Positions 26,814 to 39,061 of a stretch of 64,000 bases of DNA are shown here, in pieces. The DNA lies in the NCBI RefSeq assembly GCF_900086705.1, contig NZ_LT575483.1:2919516-2983515 (forward strand), read 5' to 3'. The number at the start of each line of letters is the position of its first letter. The stretch's first letter is position 1. Source of the DNA: Massilibacillus massiliensis (GTDB taxonomy: Bacteria; Bacillota; Negativicutes; FLKF01). The notes below the pieces were generated by a model. It was not told the origin of the DNA and ran no database searches. It worked only from the letters and a program-made list of their open reading frames with translations. A program made the position numbers and the translations under genes.

Positions 26814-28223
26814 GGCTCTTTGTCAAATGTTGTGGTTTAGACAGGATGGAAAAATCCATCCTGTCTTTTTATATGCAGATTTCTGTAAAAATTCGTTTCT
26901 TTCGCACTTTTCTTCTTTCCGGATTGTTTAATAAATAGATAATGCGCCGTTTAAAGTTATCAAAATTTCTGTAGCTGTAACATATTCTTTTTAGGTTCTT
27001 TATTGTCGTATTGCATCCTTCTGTAAAGCCATTGTTATAGCCGGTTGCTATTGCATGTAGGATTTCCGTTTTCCACTGAATCGTTGTATTCCATAAAGTT
27101 TGAAAGGGTTTCAAATTTTGCTTTTCTACGGCTGCTTGAAATCCTTTCAGCTTTTGTATAAATTGCTTGCTGTCTTTGCTGTCAAGAAGATCAAAATAAA
27201 CTTCTTTCATTGCGTAGGCAGCAGATAAATCCTCTGAGTAATTCAGCATGACTTGCAAAGCTGCACGGTCTTCATCGTTAGAAAGATTCTTTTCTCTAGT
27301 GAGCATAAGATATCTAGCACGTTTAAAATACCTTCGCTGATTTTCTGGAAGGTTGCTTTGCACCTGCTTTCGAATGGTATTTAAAGCGTCATTTGCCATT
27401 CGTACCGCATGAAATTTATCTGCTGCAATTTTGGCATTCGGAAAGCATTCTTTGGCCATTTTTCTAAAGGATGAACTTAAATCTATACTCACATGCTTAA
27501 CTTTTAAGCGCTCGGCTAAAGGATAGGCAAGGATCTTTGCATAAAGGATATCCGGAGAACGATCTTCAATAATATTTAAGCAAGTGTAGTTATTCAGATC
27601 GTTTATGACGACCTGAAATTTTGCGCCAGCATTGCCTTTAAACTCATCAATCGAGATAGATGAGGAAAGATTAGATGAAGCGGGAGAAACCGATTTAAAC
27701 AAACGCTGTACCGTAGAGATTGAAAGTTTATATCGGTGAGCAATATCGGTAGAAGTAACCAAAAACCCATGTTCTTGAAGTATTTTAGCAATAAGTTCAC
27801 GAGACATTCGCTGGTATTTGGAAAGAAGAGAATTCTGTTCAGAAAAAGCTTTCCCGCAAGAGGAACATCTGTACCTGCGTCTGCGATAGACAAGGAGGAA
27901 CTCTGTATTTGAGAGCAACAAAGTTTTAACAGGCTGATGTCTATAGTCATGAATTTTTAAAGTTTGTGTCTGACAATGAGGGCAGGCATGGGATTTTACA
28001 GGTAAGGTGAGTAAAAAAGTATGATCATCGATGAGTTTTAAACTGTTTTCTGGTAAATGCATAATAGATGTGATAAAATTCATATTGGACATGGCGATTT
28101 CTCCTAGATGTTAGTTTTGGTCAATTAATATTTTACTAGAAATCTCCCATGTCTTTTTGTATGCAAAAAAATAAATGTTGTAGTTTTGATTTTCATCAAA
28201 ACCACAACATTTATTATAGAGCC
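26814..28223 (-). mobile_element. ISL3-family insertion sequence, copy 2, with 8-bp target duplication
   Basis: A complete 1410-bp element with the same ends as copy 1 but in reverse orientation. TTTATTTT occurs at 26806-26813 and again at 28224-28231, the target duplication. It lies in the tail of the uvrA terminator and 61 bp from the 3' end of the minus-strand gene at 28285, so it disrupts no gene. Confidence 0.95.
26869..28092 (-). CDS. ISL3-family transposase (copy 2)
   Basis: A 407-residue transposase with the same amino-acid sequence as the one at 1978-3201, including the N-terminal zinc finger, helix-turn-helix and DDE core. The internal left-end terminator hairpin is also present (about 28166-28212), so transcription from the nif side is unlikely to run into it. 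Confidence 0.97.
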   Translation of the reverse strand: MSNMNFITSIMHLPENSLKLIDDHTFLLTLPVKSHACPHCQTQTLKIHDYRHQPVKTLLLSNTEFLLVYRRRRYRCSSCGKAFSEQNSLLSKYQRMSRELIAKILQEHGFLVTSTDIAHRYKLSISTVQRLFKSVSPASSNLSSSISIDEFKGNAGAKFQVVINDLNNYTCLNIIEDRSPDILYAKILAYPLAERLKVKHVSIDLSSSFRKMAKECFPNAKIAADKFHAVRMANDALNTIRKQVQSNLPENQRRYFKRARYLMLTREKNLSNDEDRAALQVMLNYSEDLSAAYAMKEVYFDLLDSKDSKQFIQKLKGFQAAVEKQNLKPFQTLWNTTIQWKTEILHAIATGYNNGFTEGCNTTIKNLKRICYSYRNFDNFKRRIIYLLNNPERRKVRKKRIFTEICI

Positions 28224-28284: not shown

Positions 28285-29214
28285 TTATGTGCATTGTCCA
28301 CAACTATCGCAATTACTGGAAGTGCACTTCGTTGGCATGATCGTAACTTTGCTATCAGAGAGCGGATAACGATGCTCTGTAGAGTTCGTAATCATAACAT
28401 CAGTATCCGTAAAAGTTAAGGTAAGGGGCAAGCGGATGGTATCATGATCATCTAGAGGTTTGATTTTTTCAATAGGTTTGATAAAATCAATGGTTTCTTT
28501 TGTTGTAATGGTAAATTGATCGATGGTTTTTATGGATGCGATATCTCCAGTTTCATTAAATTGGAGAGAATTGCGATCCGCGTGGATGCCAATGCTTTGT
28601 GGATCGAAAGCATGGACTTTGCCAATGGGCGTTGCAATTGGTGTTGGGCTAGCAGGTTCCACGGAAGTTAGATTGCCGTGCTGATCCAAAGAAAAACCGG
28701 TTTTTACAGCGATCGTACCAACGGGCGTAGTAAGGTCTATTACCTCGCTTGGATGTAAGGTTAAACTACATAGCTTCCCTGTTTCATAAAAATATAAGCT
28801 GATAATCTTGGCAGTGAATTTTGCAAATTTAAAATCGAAATCAAAGGGCATTGTCAGCTCATTTTCTTGGTTTTCCGACCAGTAACCACTGAGTTTGCCA
28901 TTGAGGGGAAACAATCTCTTGATTGCACCGGTGGGATAAAAGGTGAGGAATTCAGCGGGAAATTTACCAATTGGCGTTTGGATTTGAGTGCTCACTTCGA
29001 GGGAAATGCTTTTTAAATCCCCCGATTCATAAAAGGTTAGGGAATTGATATATTTACGTCGTAAGTCATCATAATGATATTGCGGCACCAAATCGCCAAC
29101 CGTTGTTTTCACAATGTTTTTTTCTTGGAGGATGCAGCCTGCTAAGATCCCATTGGGGTGATATTCTTCACGGGTGCAATCCAGAAGTGTACCATAATTT
29201 GTTGCAATGTCCAT
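28285..29214 (-). CDS. MORN-like repeat protein with C-terminal cysteine cluster, nif-linked
   Basis: A 309-residue protein of unknown function, no signal peptide. It is built of about six or seven repeats of a beta-hairpin of the type [LF]-x-[FY]-x-x-[TSN]-G-x-[LI], for example EYHPNGIL, LTFYESGDL, LTFYPTGAI, LYFYETGKL and LQFNETGDI, resembling MORN_2 repeats. Between them recurs a T-P-[IV]-G segment. It ends CTSSNCDSCGQC, a C-x4-C-x2-C-x2-C cluster suited to zinc, Fe-S or molybdenum-sulfur chemistry. It is the second gene after the AnfO-family gene (15-base gap), divergent from nifH. GAGGATGA precedes the ATG. A nitrogenase accessory or metal-related role is inferred from position only. Confidence 0.7.
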   Translation of the reverse strand: MDIATNYGTLLDCTREEYHPNGILAGCILQEKNIVKTTVGDLVPQYHYDDLRRKYINSLTFYESGDLKSISLEVSTQIQTPIGKFPAEFLTFYPTGAIKRLFPLNGKLSGYWSENQENELTMPFDFDFKFAKFTAKIISLYFYETGKLCSLTLHPSEVIDLTTPVGTIAVKTGFSLDQHGNLTSVEPASPTPIATPIGKVHAFDPQSIGIHADRNSLQFNETGDIASIKTIDQFTITTKETIDFIKPIEKIKPLDDHDTIRLPLTLTFTDTDVMITNSTEHRYPLSDSKVTIMPTKCTSSNCDSCGQCT

Positions 29215-29229
29215 CGTTGATCATCCTCA

Positions 29230-29850
29230 CTATTTACAGATTTTTTTTGTAATTGTTACAAGTATCGCTGCGCCACGCTTTTTTCTGATAATATCAAATT
29301 GGTTTGTGTATTCAAACGTTTCTAGCCAAGGGGGAAGGTGTGAACAGAGTACGTCTAATTTTACAAATGGAATATTGTGTAAAAATGATTGTAAAGCTTT
29401 TTTGGATGAAATATCAGGGCGATTTTCTTGCAATTGAATGAGATCTAAAAAATAAATACCATCAACAGTCTCAATAGGCGTGGTTGGTATCGCTTCATCT
29501 CGCTTGATATTCTCTGTATTGTTATTGATATCCATAAGAATTTCATTTAAAATGGTTGTTTGAAAACTAGGTATTTCAAATATATGAAAGCCCATACGAT
29601 CAAAAACATTGTATGCAAGGCCAGTAATAGACTGGCTGACAATGATCTTACAATCATCTAATTTAGTAATTAAATTGCGTACTTGATTTCTGATGTCTTG
29701 CAGATTGGTTGATAAATCAATTTGATAAGGTATTTGTTTTCTCGCGATCCAATCATTCTTTCGTTTTTCAAAGACGATAAGCGTATTTGCTTCGCTTAAC
29801 TTAGCAAGGTCCGTTTGTCCTTTGAAGGTTACAGCAATTTTCTCTGCCAT
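29230..29850 (-). CDS. AnfO-family nitrogenase accessory protein
   Basis: A 206-residue protein resembling the Fe-only nitrogenase accessory protein AnfO family: MAEKIAVTFKGQTDL at the start, ITGLAYNVFDRMGFHIFEI near 95-113, and a C-terminal SKKALQSFLHNIPFVKLDVL then CSHLPPWLE block and an ITKKICK tail. AnfO is associated with Fe-only nitrogenase operons; its reaction is unknown. Here it sits upstream of a MORN-like protein and divergent from a molybdenum nif cluster, with no anfHDGK genes in the window. ATG at 29850 fits the AAAGGG site better than the GTG at 29859. Confidence 0.72.
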   Translation of the reverse strand: MAEKIAVTFKGQTDLAKLSEANTLIVFEKRKNDWIARKQIPYQIDLSTNLQDIRNQVRNLITKLDDCKIIVSQSITGLAYNVFDRMGFHIFEIPSFQTTILNEILMDINNNTENIKRDEAIPTTPIETVDGIYFLDLIQLQENRPDISSKKALQSFLHNIPFVKLDVLCSHLPPWLETFEYTNQFDIIRKKRGAAILVTITKKICK

Positions 29851-29897: not shown

Positions 29898-29926
29898 ACT
29901 ATAACGATGTGTATATAAAAAGTCAA
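29898..29926 (-). promoter_or_regulatory. Predicted sigma-A promoter of the anfO-like operon
   Basis: On the minus strand TTGACT (29926-29921) and TATAGT (29903-29898) are 17 bases apart. The -10 is the same as that of the divergent nifH promoter about 210 bp away. Confidence 0.75.
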
Positions 29927-30111: not shown

Positions 30112-30140
30112 TTGACAGAGAGAAAGTTTTAAATTATAGT
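30112..30140 (+). promoter_or_regulatory. Predicted sigma-A promoter of the nif operon
   Basis: TTGACA at 30112-30117 and TATAGT at 30135-30140 with 17 bases between. Transcription would start near 30147, leaving a leader of about 220 bases before nifH. No sigma-54 element or obvious NifA box is seen. Confidence 0.8.
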
Positions 30141-30215
30141 TACCGTATAAACAATTTAAACAAAAATATTTTAAGTTTTTTAAAAATATTATTTAAAAAA
30201 TTAATAAGGTAGTAC

Positions 30216-30269
30216 TAAGACAGAGACAGTCTTAATTATGAGCGTTTGCTATAATTAAGACTGTTTTTT
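30216..30269 (+). terminator. Putative attenuator in the nifH leader: terminator plus competing hairpin
   Basis: CAGTCTTAATTAT at 30227-30239 pairs perfectly with ATAATTAAGACTG at 30251-30263 and is followed by six T, a strong terminator between the promoter and nifH. TAAGAC at 30216-30221 can instead pair with GTCTTA at 30229-30234, using the left arm of the terminator, around the loop AGAGACA. The two folds exclude each other, which is the usual layout of antitermination control. The factor that would choose between them is unknown. Confidence 0.75.
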
Positions 30270-30283
30270 GATTTCTAGGGGAT

Positions 30284-30328
30284 AAAGTATAAATCATTTC
30301 CAAGGCAAGTTGGTGATGATCATACTTT
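30284..30328 (+). promoter_or_regulatory. Long hairpin just upstream of the nifH ribosome site
   Basis: AAAGTAT at 30284-30290 pairs with ATACTTT at 30322-30328, and the interior (ATCAT.. CCAA / TTGG..ATGAT) continues the stem. It has no T run, so it is more likely a 5' stabilising hairpin for nifH mRNA than a terminator. Confidence 0.55.
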
Positions 30329-30345
30329 AAATAAAAATTAAGTGA

Positions 30346-31188
<843 letters not shown>

Positions 31189-35063: not shown

Positions 35064-36404
35064 ATGGAAGCAAGGATACTTGAGGAGAGAAAACAATCCA
35101 TTATGGTAAAAGATTTTTGTTGTAATGGAGATGGAAAAAGTATTACCTGTGAAAAAGAAAGTGTATCGGGGGCTGTGAGTCAACGTGCTTGTGTATATTG
35201 TGGTGCGCGCGTAGTGTTGAATCCGATTACCGATGCCTACCATATTGTTCATGGGCCAATTGGCTGTGCAAGTTATACTTGGGATATTCGCGGCAGCCTT
35301 TCTAGTGGCAGCGATTTGTATCGCAATAGTTTTTCAACGGATTTAAGAGAAAGAGATGTTATTTTTGGCGGTGAAAAAAGATTAACCGCTGCCATTGATG
35401 AAATCGTAACCAAGCATTCACCTAAATTAATGTTCGTCTATGCGACCTGTATTGTGGGCGTTATTGGTGATGATATCGAAGCTGTCTGTAAGCAGGCTTC
35501 GCAAAAGTACAATATTTGTGTGGTTCCTGTCAAAGCACCCGGCTTTTCCGGCACCAAAACACTTGGATATAAAATGGCTTGTGATGCTTTAATGCAAGTG
35601 ATAAAGCCACATGCCAAACCAGAACAACCTAAAAAAGGAATTAATATTTTAGGGGACTTTAACCTAGCCGGAGAAATGTGGATTATTAAAAATTATTTTA
35701 AAAAAATCGGTGTCGATGTTATTTCAACGATCACTGGGGATGCTTCTTATGATACCTTGATCAAAGCCTCCACTGCGGAGTTAAATATTGTGCAATGTGC
35801 AGGGTCAAGTACCTATTTAGCCAATCGCATGGAAGAAGAACTAGCCATACCTTTTTTAAAGGTAAGCTTTTTCGGCGTAGAGGATACGACCAATTCCCTA
35901 ATGCGGGTTGCCTATGCCATTGGTGATGCAGAGGTCATTCGTAAGGCCCAAGCCTTTACTGAAGTAGAAGCGGCAAAACTGCAAGACTTTTTAACAAAAT
36001 ATCGCCGTAATCTTCTCGGTAAAAAAGCAGCGATTTATGTTGGCGGTGGGGTTAAAGCCATTTCACTGATTCGGCAGTTTAATGAAATGGGCATTGAAAC
36101 CGTCGTCGTTGGAACACAGACCGGTAAAAAAGAAGAGTATGCGGTTATTCAAAGTTTAGTGAATGAACATACCGTAATTTTAGATGATGCCAATCCGGCT
36201 GAACTAGAAACTTTCATGAAAGAAAAAGGTGCAAATATTTTAGTTGGCGGAGTCAAAGAGCGGCCGCTTGCTTATAAACTAGGCATTGCCTTTTGCGATC
36301 ACAATCATGAACGCAAACACGCTTTAGCCGGTTATGAAGGGGTAATCAATTTTACCAAAGAAATTAATCTAACCATCAACAGTCCGGTTTGGCAGTTATT
36401 ATAA
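35064..36404 (+). CDS. nifE: Nitrogenase MoFe cofactor biosynthesis protein NifE
   Basis: A 446-residue NifE, paralogue of NifD. It contains RACVYCGARVVLNPI, HGPIGCASYTWDIRG, and ATCIVGVIGDDIEA, matching the cluster ligands, and ends with GYEGVINFTKEI. With NifN it forms the scaffold on which the NifB product matures into FeMo-co. ATG at 35064 follows AGGAGGG; the in-frame ATG at 35004 lies inside the nifK hairpin and is rejected. Confidence 0.96.
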   Translation: MEARILEERKQSIMVKDFCCNGDGKSITCEKESVSGAVSQRACVYCGARVVLNPITDAYHIVHGPIGCASYTWDIRGSLSSGSDLYRNSFSTDLRERDVIFGGEKRLTAAIDEIVTKHSPKLMFVYATCIVGVIGDDIEAVCKQASQKYNICVVPVKAPGFSGTKTLGYKMACDALMQVIKPHAKPEQPKKGINILGDFNLAGEMWIIKNYFKKIGVDVISTITGDASYDTLIKASTAELNIVQCAGSSTYLANRMEEELAIPFLKVSFFGVEDTTNSLMRVAYAIGDAEVIRKAQAFTEVEAAKLQDFLTKYRRNLLGKKAAIYVGGGVKAISLIRQFNEMGIETVVVGTQTGKKEEYAVIQSLVNEHTVILDDANPAELETFMKEKGANILVGGVKERPLAYKLGIAFCDHNHERKHALAGYEGVINFTKEINLTINSPVWQLL

Positions 36405-36433
36405 GAAAGAGGGAAAAGAGGAGGCTGGTTTCA

Positions 36434-39061
36434 ATGGGAGTGAATTTTACAAATTTGAATGTAAATCCTTGCAAAATGTGTACGCCGATGGGAGCGGTTA
36501 CTGCGTTATATGGCATAAAAAAATGTATGTCGATTTTACACGGATCACAAGGCTGTAGTACCTATATACGTCGCCACATGGCAACGCATTATAATGAACC
36601 AGTTGATATCGCTTCCTCCTCATTAACGGAAGAAGGTACTGTATTTGGCGGCGCAAGCAATCTGATGAAAGGGTTAGAAAATCTCATCCGTTTATATAAT
36701 CCCGAGGTGATCGGCGTATCTACCACGTGTTTGGCAGAAACCACCGGTGAAGATATCAAGGCGATTATTAAAAATTTTTATACGGCACATCCTGACTGTA
36801 AGGTAAAGATTATTCCAGTTTCAACAGCCGGCTATGCTGGTACACAATATGAAGGGTTTTTTAAAGCCTTACAAGCAATTGTTGCAAATGTAGAAATGGA
36901 TACGAAAAAAAATAATAAAATTAACATCATTACGGGGCTGATTTCACCAGCGGATACGCGCTATCTAAAACAACTACTAGACGGCTTAGGTGTTTCGTAT
37001 ATTCTACTGCCGGATTTATCAGAAAATCTAGACGGCGTCCATGTTGATGTATATCATAGATTGCCAAGTGAAGGCACCTCGCTAGAAGAAATTAGCCAAA
37101 TGGCCGGAGCTAAATTTACAATAGAATTATCTACCTTTGTCAGCGATGATATTTCTCCGGCAAAATATCTAGCGGATCACTATGGTGTCCCTTATAAAAG
37201 AATGGATTTGCCGGTAGGATTACAGGCGACCGATACTTTTATTAAGCAAATTGTGGAATTGGGTGGGGTCATTTCCACAGAGTTAGCCAAGGAACGTGGT
37301 CGTTATCTTGATGCGATGGTAGATTCTCATAAATACAATGCGCTTGGCAGAGCAACGGTGTTTGGTGAACCTGATTTCGTCAAAGCGATCATCAATCTGT
37401 GCTGTGAAAATGGTATTGTCCCAGTGGTGAGTGCGACTGGTGCTGCTTGCACAAAATTTCAAGAAAAAATTGAAGCACAGATCAAGAAAGTTGCCGATGG
37501 GTTATTTGTCGAAAACTATGCAATGGTTGACGATGCCGATTTTGAAACGATTGAGCAATTAACATTAAATTTAAAAGCAAATGTGATGATTGGTAATTCC
37601 GATGCACGGAGAATTTCAGAGAAACATTCGATTGACCTTGTACGTTGTGCATTTCCGATCCATGATCGCGTGGGCGGGCAACGCATACAAATGATTGGGT
37701 ATGCCGGATCGTTAAGTTTACTGGATCGTGTTGCAAATACTCTATTGGGAGCAAAAGAGCGCTCTTTTCGTGAAGAACTTTATGAGAAATATTATATGGG
37801 CAGTGATAAAAAACAGAAAGCATCTACTGGTGCGGTAGTTTCCCTCCCATCTTCGCAAACGATTGCGGAAAAGACGGCAACACATCCTTGTTATAATTGC
37901 GGCGCTGGTCAATATGCGAGAATTCATTTACCGATTGCACCAAAATGCAATGTGCAATGTAATTATTGTGTAAGAAAATATGATTGCCCAAATGAAAGCC
38001 GTCCCGGTGTAACGACGGAAATTCTTACACCGGAGGAAGCCTTCCAAAAATATGTGATGGTAAAAGAAAAAATGCCGAATTTAAAAGTTGTTGGCATTGC
38101 CGGTCCCGGAGATTCTTTGGCAAATTTTACAGAGACGAAAGAAACGTTAAAACTGATTAAAGCATACGATCCGGAAGTAACTTTTTGTTTATCGACGAAT
38201 GGTTTGATGCTGCCGCTTTATGCACAAGATTTGATTGATTTAGGTGTGACACATGTTACTGTCACGCTAAATGCAATTGATCCAAAAGTTGGAGCACAGA
38301 TCTATCGGTATGTGGAATATATGGGGATTCGCTATACAGGTGAAAGTGCAGCGGGGATTTTAATTGGCAATCAATTGAGCGGATTGCAGTATTTAACGAA
38401 GCGCGGCATTATTTGTAAGGTAAATACAGTGATGTTAAAGGGGGTCAATGAAGCACACATTGAAGATGTCATAAAAAAAGTAAAAGAAATTGGCTGTGAA
38501 ATCAGTAATATTATGCAGCTAATTCCTGTGCAGGGCAGTGCCTTTGAAACGATGCCGCTTGTGAGTAATAAAGAAATCATGGCGATGCGCAAGCGCTGTG
38601 AAGTACATCTTAAGCAGATGTATCATTGCAAGCAATGTCGTGCCGATGCAATCGGGATACTTGGTAATGATGTTTCTATCGAATATCGCAGTTGTACGGA
38701 TTCTAGTAAGAACGGAGTTAAAGATTTAGCCTTAAAACGGTTTGCCGTTGCGACGAAAAGCGGGATGCTAGTAGATCAGCATTTTGGGCAGGTAAATGAG
38801 TTCTATATCTATGAAAGTGATGGAAGTACTGCGCAGTTTGTCGAACGGCGCAACGTTGAAAAATATTGTACCGGTGTAGAAAATTGTGAGGAGAAGTCAA
38901 GTAAAATGGAAAGCATTTTAACGGCTGTGAAGGATTGTCATAGTGTTCTTACGCTGCGTATTGGTGATTCACCGTCTAAACGGTTAAAAGAAATGGGAAT
39001 CGGAATTGTTGTTACGTACGATCGTATTGAAGATGCAGTGAAAAAGGCAGCCAATCAATAA
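36434..39061 (+). CDS. nifN-B: NifN-NifB fusion protein
   Basis: An 875-residue fusion. Residues about 1-440 are NifN (NVNPCKMCTPMGAVTALYG, HGSQGCSTYIRRH, STTCLAETTGED). After a short linker, residues about 475-760 are a radical SAM NifB domain: CNVQCNYC with Cys505, Cys509 and Cys512, then VGIAGPGDSLAN. The last 100 residues (KRFAVATKSGMLVDQHFGQ) are the NifX/NafY-type cofactor-binding domain. The fusion joins NifB-co synthesis to the NifEN scaffold and is known from clostridia such as C. pasteurianum. ATG at 36434 follows GAGGAGG; the in-frame start at 36389 overlaps nifE and lacks a site. Confidence 0.96.
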   Translation: MGVNFTNLNVNPCKMCTPMGAVTALYGIKKCMSILHGSQGCSTYIRRHMATHYNEPVDIASSSLTEEGTVFGGASNLMKGLENLIRLYNPEVIGVSTTCLAETTGEDIKAIIKNFYTAHPDCKVKIIPVSTAGYAGTQYEGFFKALQAIVANVEMDTKKNNKINIITGLISPADTRYLKQLLDGLGVSYILLPDLSENLDGVHVDVYHRLPSEGTSLEEISQMAGAKFTIELSTFVSDDISPAKYLADHYGVPYKRMDLPVGLQATDTFIKQIVELGGVISTELAKERGRYLDAMVDSHKYNALGRATVFGEPDFVKAIINLCCENGIVPVVSATGAACTKFQEKIEAQIKKVADGLFVENYAMVDDADFETIEQLTLNLKANVMIGNSDARRISEKHSIDLVRCAFPIHDRVGGQRIQMIGYAGSLSLLDRVANTLLGAKERSFREELYEKYYMGSDKKQKASTGAVVSLPSSQTIAEKTATHPCYNCGAGQYARIHLPIAPKCNVQCNYCVRKYDCPNESRPGVTTEILTPEEAFQKYVMVKEKMPNLKVVGIAGPGDSLANFTETKETLKLIKAYDPEVTFCLSTNGLMLPLYAQDLIDLGVTHVTVTLNAIDPKVGAQIYRYVEYMGIRYTGESAAGILIGNQLSGLQYLTKRGIICKVNTVMLKGVNEAHIEDVIKKVKEIGCEISNIMQLIPVQGSAFETMPLVSNKEIMAMRKRCEVHLKQMYHCKQCRADAIGILGNDVSIEYRSCTDSSKNGVKDLALKRFAVATKSGMLVDQHFGQVNEFYIYESDGSTAQFVERRNVEKYCTGVENCEEKSSKMESILTAVKDCHSVLTLRIGDSPSKRLKEMGIGIVVTYDRIEDAVKKAANQ

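Follow-up and report, generated by a model that had tools for sequence, protein, structure and literature searches.

Known relatives of the two gene products

AnfO was characterized between 2022 and 2025 as a protein that guards the Fe-only nitrogenase (PMC9310841, PMC11938142). In A. vinelandii, the N-terminal domain of AnfO binds the apo-FeFe protein and the C-terminal domain binds FeMo- or FeV-cofactor, with His203 being essential in vivo and Cys201 dispensable (PMC11938142). The comparison in the 2022 paper covered only diazotrophs that encode Fe-only nitrogenase (PMC9310841). Here, we describe an AnfO-family gene and its neighbor in a 64,000-nucleotide stretch of DNA from a Negativicutes genome (referred to as the window). 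The window AnfO shares with A. vinelandii AnfO the Pfam family AnfO_nitrog, a two-domain layout with a NifX/NafY-like N-domain, a C-x-H motif with the essential histidine, and a nitrogenase gene neighborhood. It differs in lying in a Mo-nif locus of a genome without AnfG, in scoring below the cutoff of the Fe-only AnfO model TIGR02940, in belonging to a clade separate from anf-linked AnfO, and in being paired with a repeat protein, which is not described for A. vinelandii in PMC9310841 or PMC11938142.

The cofactor carriers NafY and NifX share the N-domain fold with the window AnfO and probably also the job of holding FeMo-cofactor or its precursors near apo-dinitrogenase. However, identity to them is only ∼10 to 12%, the window AnfO has an extra C-terminal domain, and domain roles differ, since AnfO binds the cofactor via this C-domain. 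The partner protein resembles MORN_2 (PF07661) repeat proteins, of which the YwqK type is an example, in its repeated [LF]xFYxxGxLxS hairpins. Unlike these, it has interspersed TPxG hairpins, a conserved YWSExxE block, and, in many members, a Cys tail, it stays below the Pfam cutoff, it occurs in our survey only in nitrogenase genomes, and its model found no PDB match at an E value of ≤0.001 with Foldseek.

A two-gene operon divergent from nifH

The host genome (4.0 Mb, 98% complete), which at this locus is closest to a Massilibacillus metagenome-assembled genome (MAG) among named relatives (82% identity), holds one Mo-nif cluster. A PF03139 search of this genome found neither AnfG nor VnfG, indicating that the host has no alternative nitrogenase. 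The original prediction, made from the DNA letters, had described an AnfO-family gene followed after 15 bases by a repeat-protein gene, both reading away from nifH behind a matching promoter. The open reading frames agree with this arrangement, including the C terminus of the repeat protein, MPTKCTSSNCDSCGQCT, which has the spacing C-x4-C-x2-C-x2-C, and the two promoters are indeed alike (Table 1). The ATG is the likely start of anfO because a GGG lies 10 nucleotides upstream of it, compared to 1 nucleotide for the alternative GTG. The anfO-side promoter recurs only in the Massilibacillus relative (L004), as TTGACT-N17-TATATT. An Rfam scan of the locus gave nothing above the cutoff. Immediately downstream of the operon lies an ISL3-family transposase gene (26869-28092, minus strand).

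Table 1. Positions of the operon and its signals within the window
Feature	Position	Strand	Remarks
Intrinsic terminator closing the two-gene operon	28170..28215	-	20-bp stem and T run
C-terminal Cys tail, C-x4-C-x2-C-x2-C	28285..28333	-	residues ~295-309; from sequence
Repeat gene	28285..29214	-	ATG start, 309 aa; beta-repeat (MORN_2-like) protein
AnfO-family gene	29230..29850	-	206 aa from ATG (209 aa from GTG 29859); PF09582
Promoter of anfO-repeat operon, sigma-70 type	29898..29926	-	TTGACT-N17-TATAGT
Promoter of nifH	30112..30140	+	TTGACA-N17-TATAGT
nifH	30367..31188	+	first gene of Mo-nif operon nifH-I1-I2-D-K-E-NB-V-modA

The window AnfO belongs to a clade of its own

The window AnfO matches PF09582 with an E value of 1.5e-49 (168.4 bits; cutoff, 30.3) and reaches 104.9 bits against the equivalog model TIGR02940, whose cutoff is 129.15. 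In its structural model (pLDDT 89, pTM 0.54), the N-terminal domain was matched by Foldseek to NifX (9ian_F) and to the NafY core (1p90) with a probability of 1.00; a PDB sequence search with AnfO gave no match. The C-terminal domain carries a C-S-H motif within the stretch LCSHLPPWL, whose His aligns with His203, the residue that is essential in A. vinelandii AnfO. This CSH is kept throughout the clade of the window AnfO except for VSH in one member (L060), in agreement with Cys201 being dispensable and His203 essential in A. vinelandii. The AnfO proteins of Negativicutes that are linked to the repeat protein form a single clade with a support of 100/97, separate both from anf-linked copies and from Negativicutes copies flanked by nifB and nifV. 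The latter arrangement, with AnfO inside the Mo-nif operon, is found in many other Negativicutes (L059, L063, L064, L081-L100), which have no repeat protein and often no AnfG. The presence of AnfO in Mo-nif clusters of many Bacillota, even where an alternative nitrogenase is lacking, implies a wider role of AnfO than the one established for the Fe-only enzyme.

The partner is an uncharacterized beta-repeat protein

The repeat protein alternates ∼5 to 6 hairpins of the [LF]xFYxxGxLxS type with TPxG hairpins and contains the conserved block FPLNGKxSGYWSExxE. Repeats of these two kinds had been read from the sequence before, and their numbers bear this out: the protein has five units of the MORN-like type and four of the form T-x-[IVL]-G, compared to 0.33 and 0.12 expected from composition shuffles, and none of 5,000 shuffles equaled either count. 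The MORN_2 model of Pfam scores 27.2 bits, below its gathering cutoff of 29.6. The predicted structure (pLDDT 86, pTM 0.81) is nearly all beta, as befits tandem short beta-hairpin repeats, with a single short helix (residues 114 to 120) located in the YWSExxE block. A PDB sequence search with the repeat profile and a tblastn search against plasmids gave no match, and among the matches listed in a literature search for MORN repeats and nif clusters, none carried a MORN term. The original statement that neither protein has a known reaction thus stands for the repeat protein, which is uncharacterized, but not for AnfO, given the published work (PMC9310841, PMC11938142).

The cysteine tail is present in half of the family

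Tails of the CxxC type occur in 11 of the 22 family members, always after the folded core: in all nine members from outside the Negativicutes (e.g., SCSGCAGCTGC and NSCSSCADCSAC), in the window protein, and in that of its Massilibacillus relative. In the model of the window protein the tail is disordered (pLDDT of <50 for residues 297 to 309). The other 11 Negativicutes members have no such tail, even though nine of these adjoin AnfO and nif, and the core contains no invariant Cys or His and no conserved metal ligand across the 22 members, so that Cys ligands are not conserved family-wide as would be expected of an Fe-S or metal protein. A tree of the repeat protein built without the tail requires at least two tail changes, which is compatible with, rather than proof of, an ancient tail that can be lost. 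We rejected the tail as a chance trait of the window strain, given its recurrence in distant members, and also as the core function, given that half of the family does without it. Since so many members have no tail, the core role of the protein is probably something other than metal binding.

These data bear on the proposal, part of the original prediction, that the repeat protein handles metal or Fe-S clusters. In the version that we considered, the Cys tail would bind a small cluster, Fe, or Mo, which would then be passed to AnfO or NifB/NifEN. The consistent placement of the tail in distant members speaks for this idea, whereas its absence from tailless proteins beside AnfO and nif speaks against it, and we consider it unlikely as an account of the family. 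The tail may handle metal, but this would not be a property shared by the whole family. For a role in protection against oxygen or carbon monoxide, also raised at the outset, we found nothing.

Within the survey, the repeat family is restricted to nitrogenase genomes

To what extent the repeat protein follows nitrogen fixation was assessed in sampled Bacillota genomes. It was found in 22 genomes, and all 19 that were checked for nitrogenase genes are nif positive, as judged from Oxidored_nitro matches and gene neighborhoods; the remaining three carriers, from the class of G714, include G797, whose contig holds an anf cluster. Within the Negativicutes, 13 of 380 genomes carry the repeat protein and 62 carry AnfO; all 13 also hold AnfO and a Mo-nif cluster (hypergeometric P value of 1.8e-11 for co-occurrence with AnfO, uncorrected for kinship). 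Of 398 Bacillota genomes sampled evenly across the phylum, eight contained the repeat protein, each from a different family. These eight were among the 62 genomes with strong nitrogenase matches (best Oxidored_nitro E value of 1e-100 or lower), while none of the other 336 genomes had it (hypergeometric P value of 2.3e-7, uncorrected for kinship). In these samples, the repeat protein is therefore not widespread in nondiazotrophs, where a wide spread would have spoken against the original prediction, and, given its absence from those 336 genomes, we rejected the view that it is a general MORN or antitoxin-like protein unrelated to nitrogen.

Gene neighborhoods and alternative explanations

The repeat gene has an AnfO gene as its neighbor at 14 of 22 loci, of which 11 are Mo-nif loci, two lie within Fe-only anf clusters, and one is near a contig end. 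In the Negativicutes it directly follows anfO in 11 of 13 genomes, and 10 of these 11 pairs are divergent from nifH, in line with the suspected link to Mo nitrogenase; the pair of G337 is placed after nifV-modA instead. In the remaining two genomes, both Propionispira, anfO is divergent from nifH and the repeat gene is located elsewhere, flanked by genes for a PdxK-like kinase and a Met transporter. In G714 and G797 (L125 and L164), the repeat gene sits between the anfK-side genes and anfO in anfH-I1-I2-D-K clusters, with the order of the two genes reversed (repeat-AnfO), and in G792 (L163) AnfO follows ∼480 bases after the repeat gene, near the contig end. Given that both gene orders and nitrogenase contexts differ, the two genes seem to have been juxtaposed repeatedly. 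Five genomes (G467, G577, G711, G730, and G796) have the repeat gene without a nitrogenase neighbor. A search for AnfO in the nif-positive carriers G723 and G730 found none, showing that AnfO is not absolutely required.

In G723, the repeat gene adjoins glnK-amtB. Together with the nitrogen fixation-specific distribution, this could suggest that the repeat protein is a protein-binding adaptor that serves the switch-off or regulation of nitrogenase by nitrogen status instead of its assembly. However, this context occurs in one genome only and the recurrent neighbor, AnfO, is a maturation protein, which makes such a role rather improbable.

Of the 13 Negativicutes carriers of the repeat gene, seven encode AnfG (G038, G159, G160, G161, the two Propionispira genomes, and G337), as might be expected if AnfO still excluded the wrong cofactor from Fe-only nitrogenase and the pair were a leftover of an anf-bearing ancestor. 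Against this, three of them (G038, G159, and G161) hold two AnfO types, a separate copy beside anf in addition to the nif-linked one, and the other six genomes (that of the window, G001, G162, G293, G294, and G097) lack AnfG but keep both genes intact. We regard this scenario as very unlikely. The suggested choice of cofactor, in the sense of a choice between isozymes, was rejected, since the host has no AnfG or VnfG. Equally hard to credit is that the two genes have no joint function and are merely coregulated by nitrogen starvation: eight of 22 repeat genes lie away from AnfO and two genomes lack it, but adjacency has arisen in both gene orders and in both Mo-nif and anf contexts, which, like the strong restriction to nif genomes, argues otherwise.

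A possible role in maturation of Mo nitrogenase

The reading that we favor, tentatively and at somewhat short of even confidence, is that the AnfO-repeat operon helps to mature Mo nitrogenase, with AnfO acting as a NafY-like chaperone for the cofactor and the apo-protein and the beta-repeat protein as its partner. In the mechanism that we envisage, the NifX/NafY-like N-domain of AnfO would dock onto the cofactor-less dinitrogenase, here apo-NifDK, while the C-domain with its conserved His, in the window's clade as in A. vinelandii, would hold FeMo-cofactor or a precursor, so that either the right cofactor is delivered or immature ones are kept out. The repeat protein would probably serve as an adaptor for AnfO and/or an assembly protein (NifDK or NifEN-B), with the conserved YWSExxE face as its binding surface; the flexible Cys tail would be an optional add-on for metal or cluster binding. 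Several observations count against the chaperone pair: the two nif-positive genomes without AnfO, the eight in which the pair is not adjacent, the absence of a known fold partner and of a core metal ligand, and the score of AnfO under the TIGR02940 cutoff.

A broader proposal, which we put forward with more reserve, is that the repeat family, with its beta-repeats and a Cys tail that members may lose, comprises undescribed nitrogenase accessory proteins that are specific to diazotrophic Bacillota, are dedicated partners of AnfO-type proteins, and are needed for insertion or proofreading of FeMo-cofactor in Mo-only organisms. Its nitrogenase-only distribution in the survey and recurrent AnfO neighbor make the repeat gene a concrete new candidate in cofactor insertion, and its product a possible missing part for nitrogenase transfer into new hosts.

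Other features of the locus and the host

A second cluster of the host, ∼250 kb away (L015, C6:3188000-3207900), encodes six nitrogenase D/K-like proteins, a NifH-like protein, a NifB-like radical SAM protein, and two NifX-like small proteins. It also holds sulfonate-type ABC transporter genes and adjoins an O-acetylhomoserine sulfhydrylase-like gene. None of its D/K-like and NifB-like proteins reaches an NCBIfam cutoff, and the cluster may be a methylthio-alkane-reductase-like system.

The nifH leader of the window (30141-30351) contains a terminator-like hairpin with a 14-bp stem and a T run at 30226-30270, between promoter and gene. Six related nifH leaders (L049, L051, L052, L054, L055, and L060) carry a hexaloop of the type GGAC-AAAGNN-GUCC, with A1 and G4 as in ANTAR targets; a search for it in the window's own leader found none. 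In the six leaders the hexaloop overlaps the 5′ arm of the terminator, suggesting antitermination control of nif. Finally, the window encodes a NifN-NifB fusion of 890 amino acids with a NifX-like C-terminal domain (36389-39061), and this fusion is common to the repeat-linked loci.
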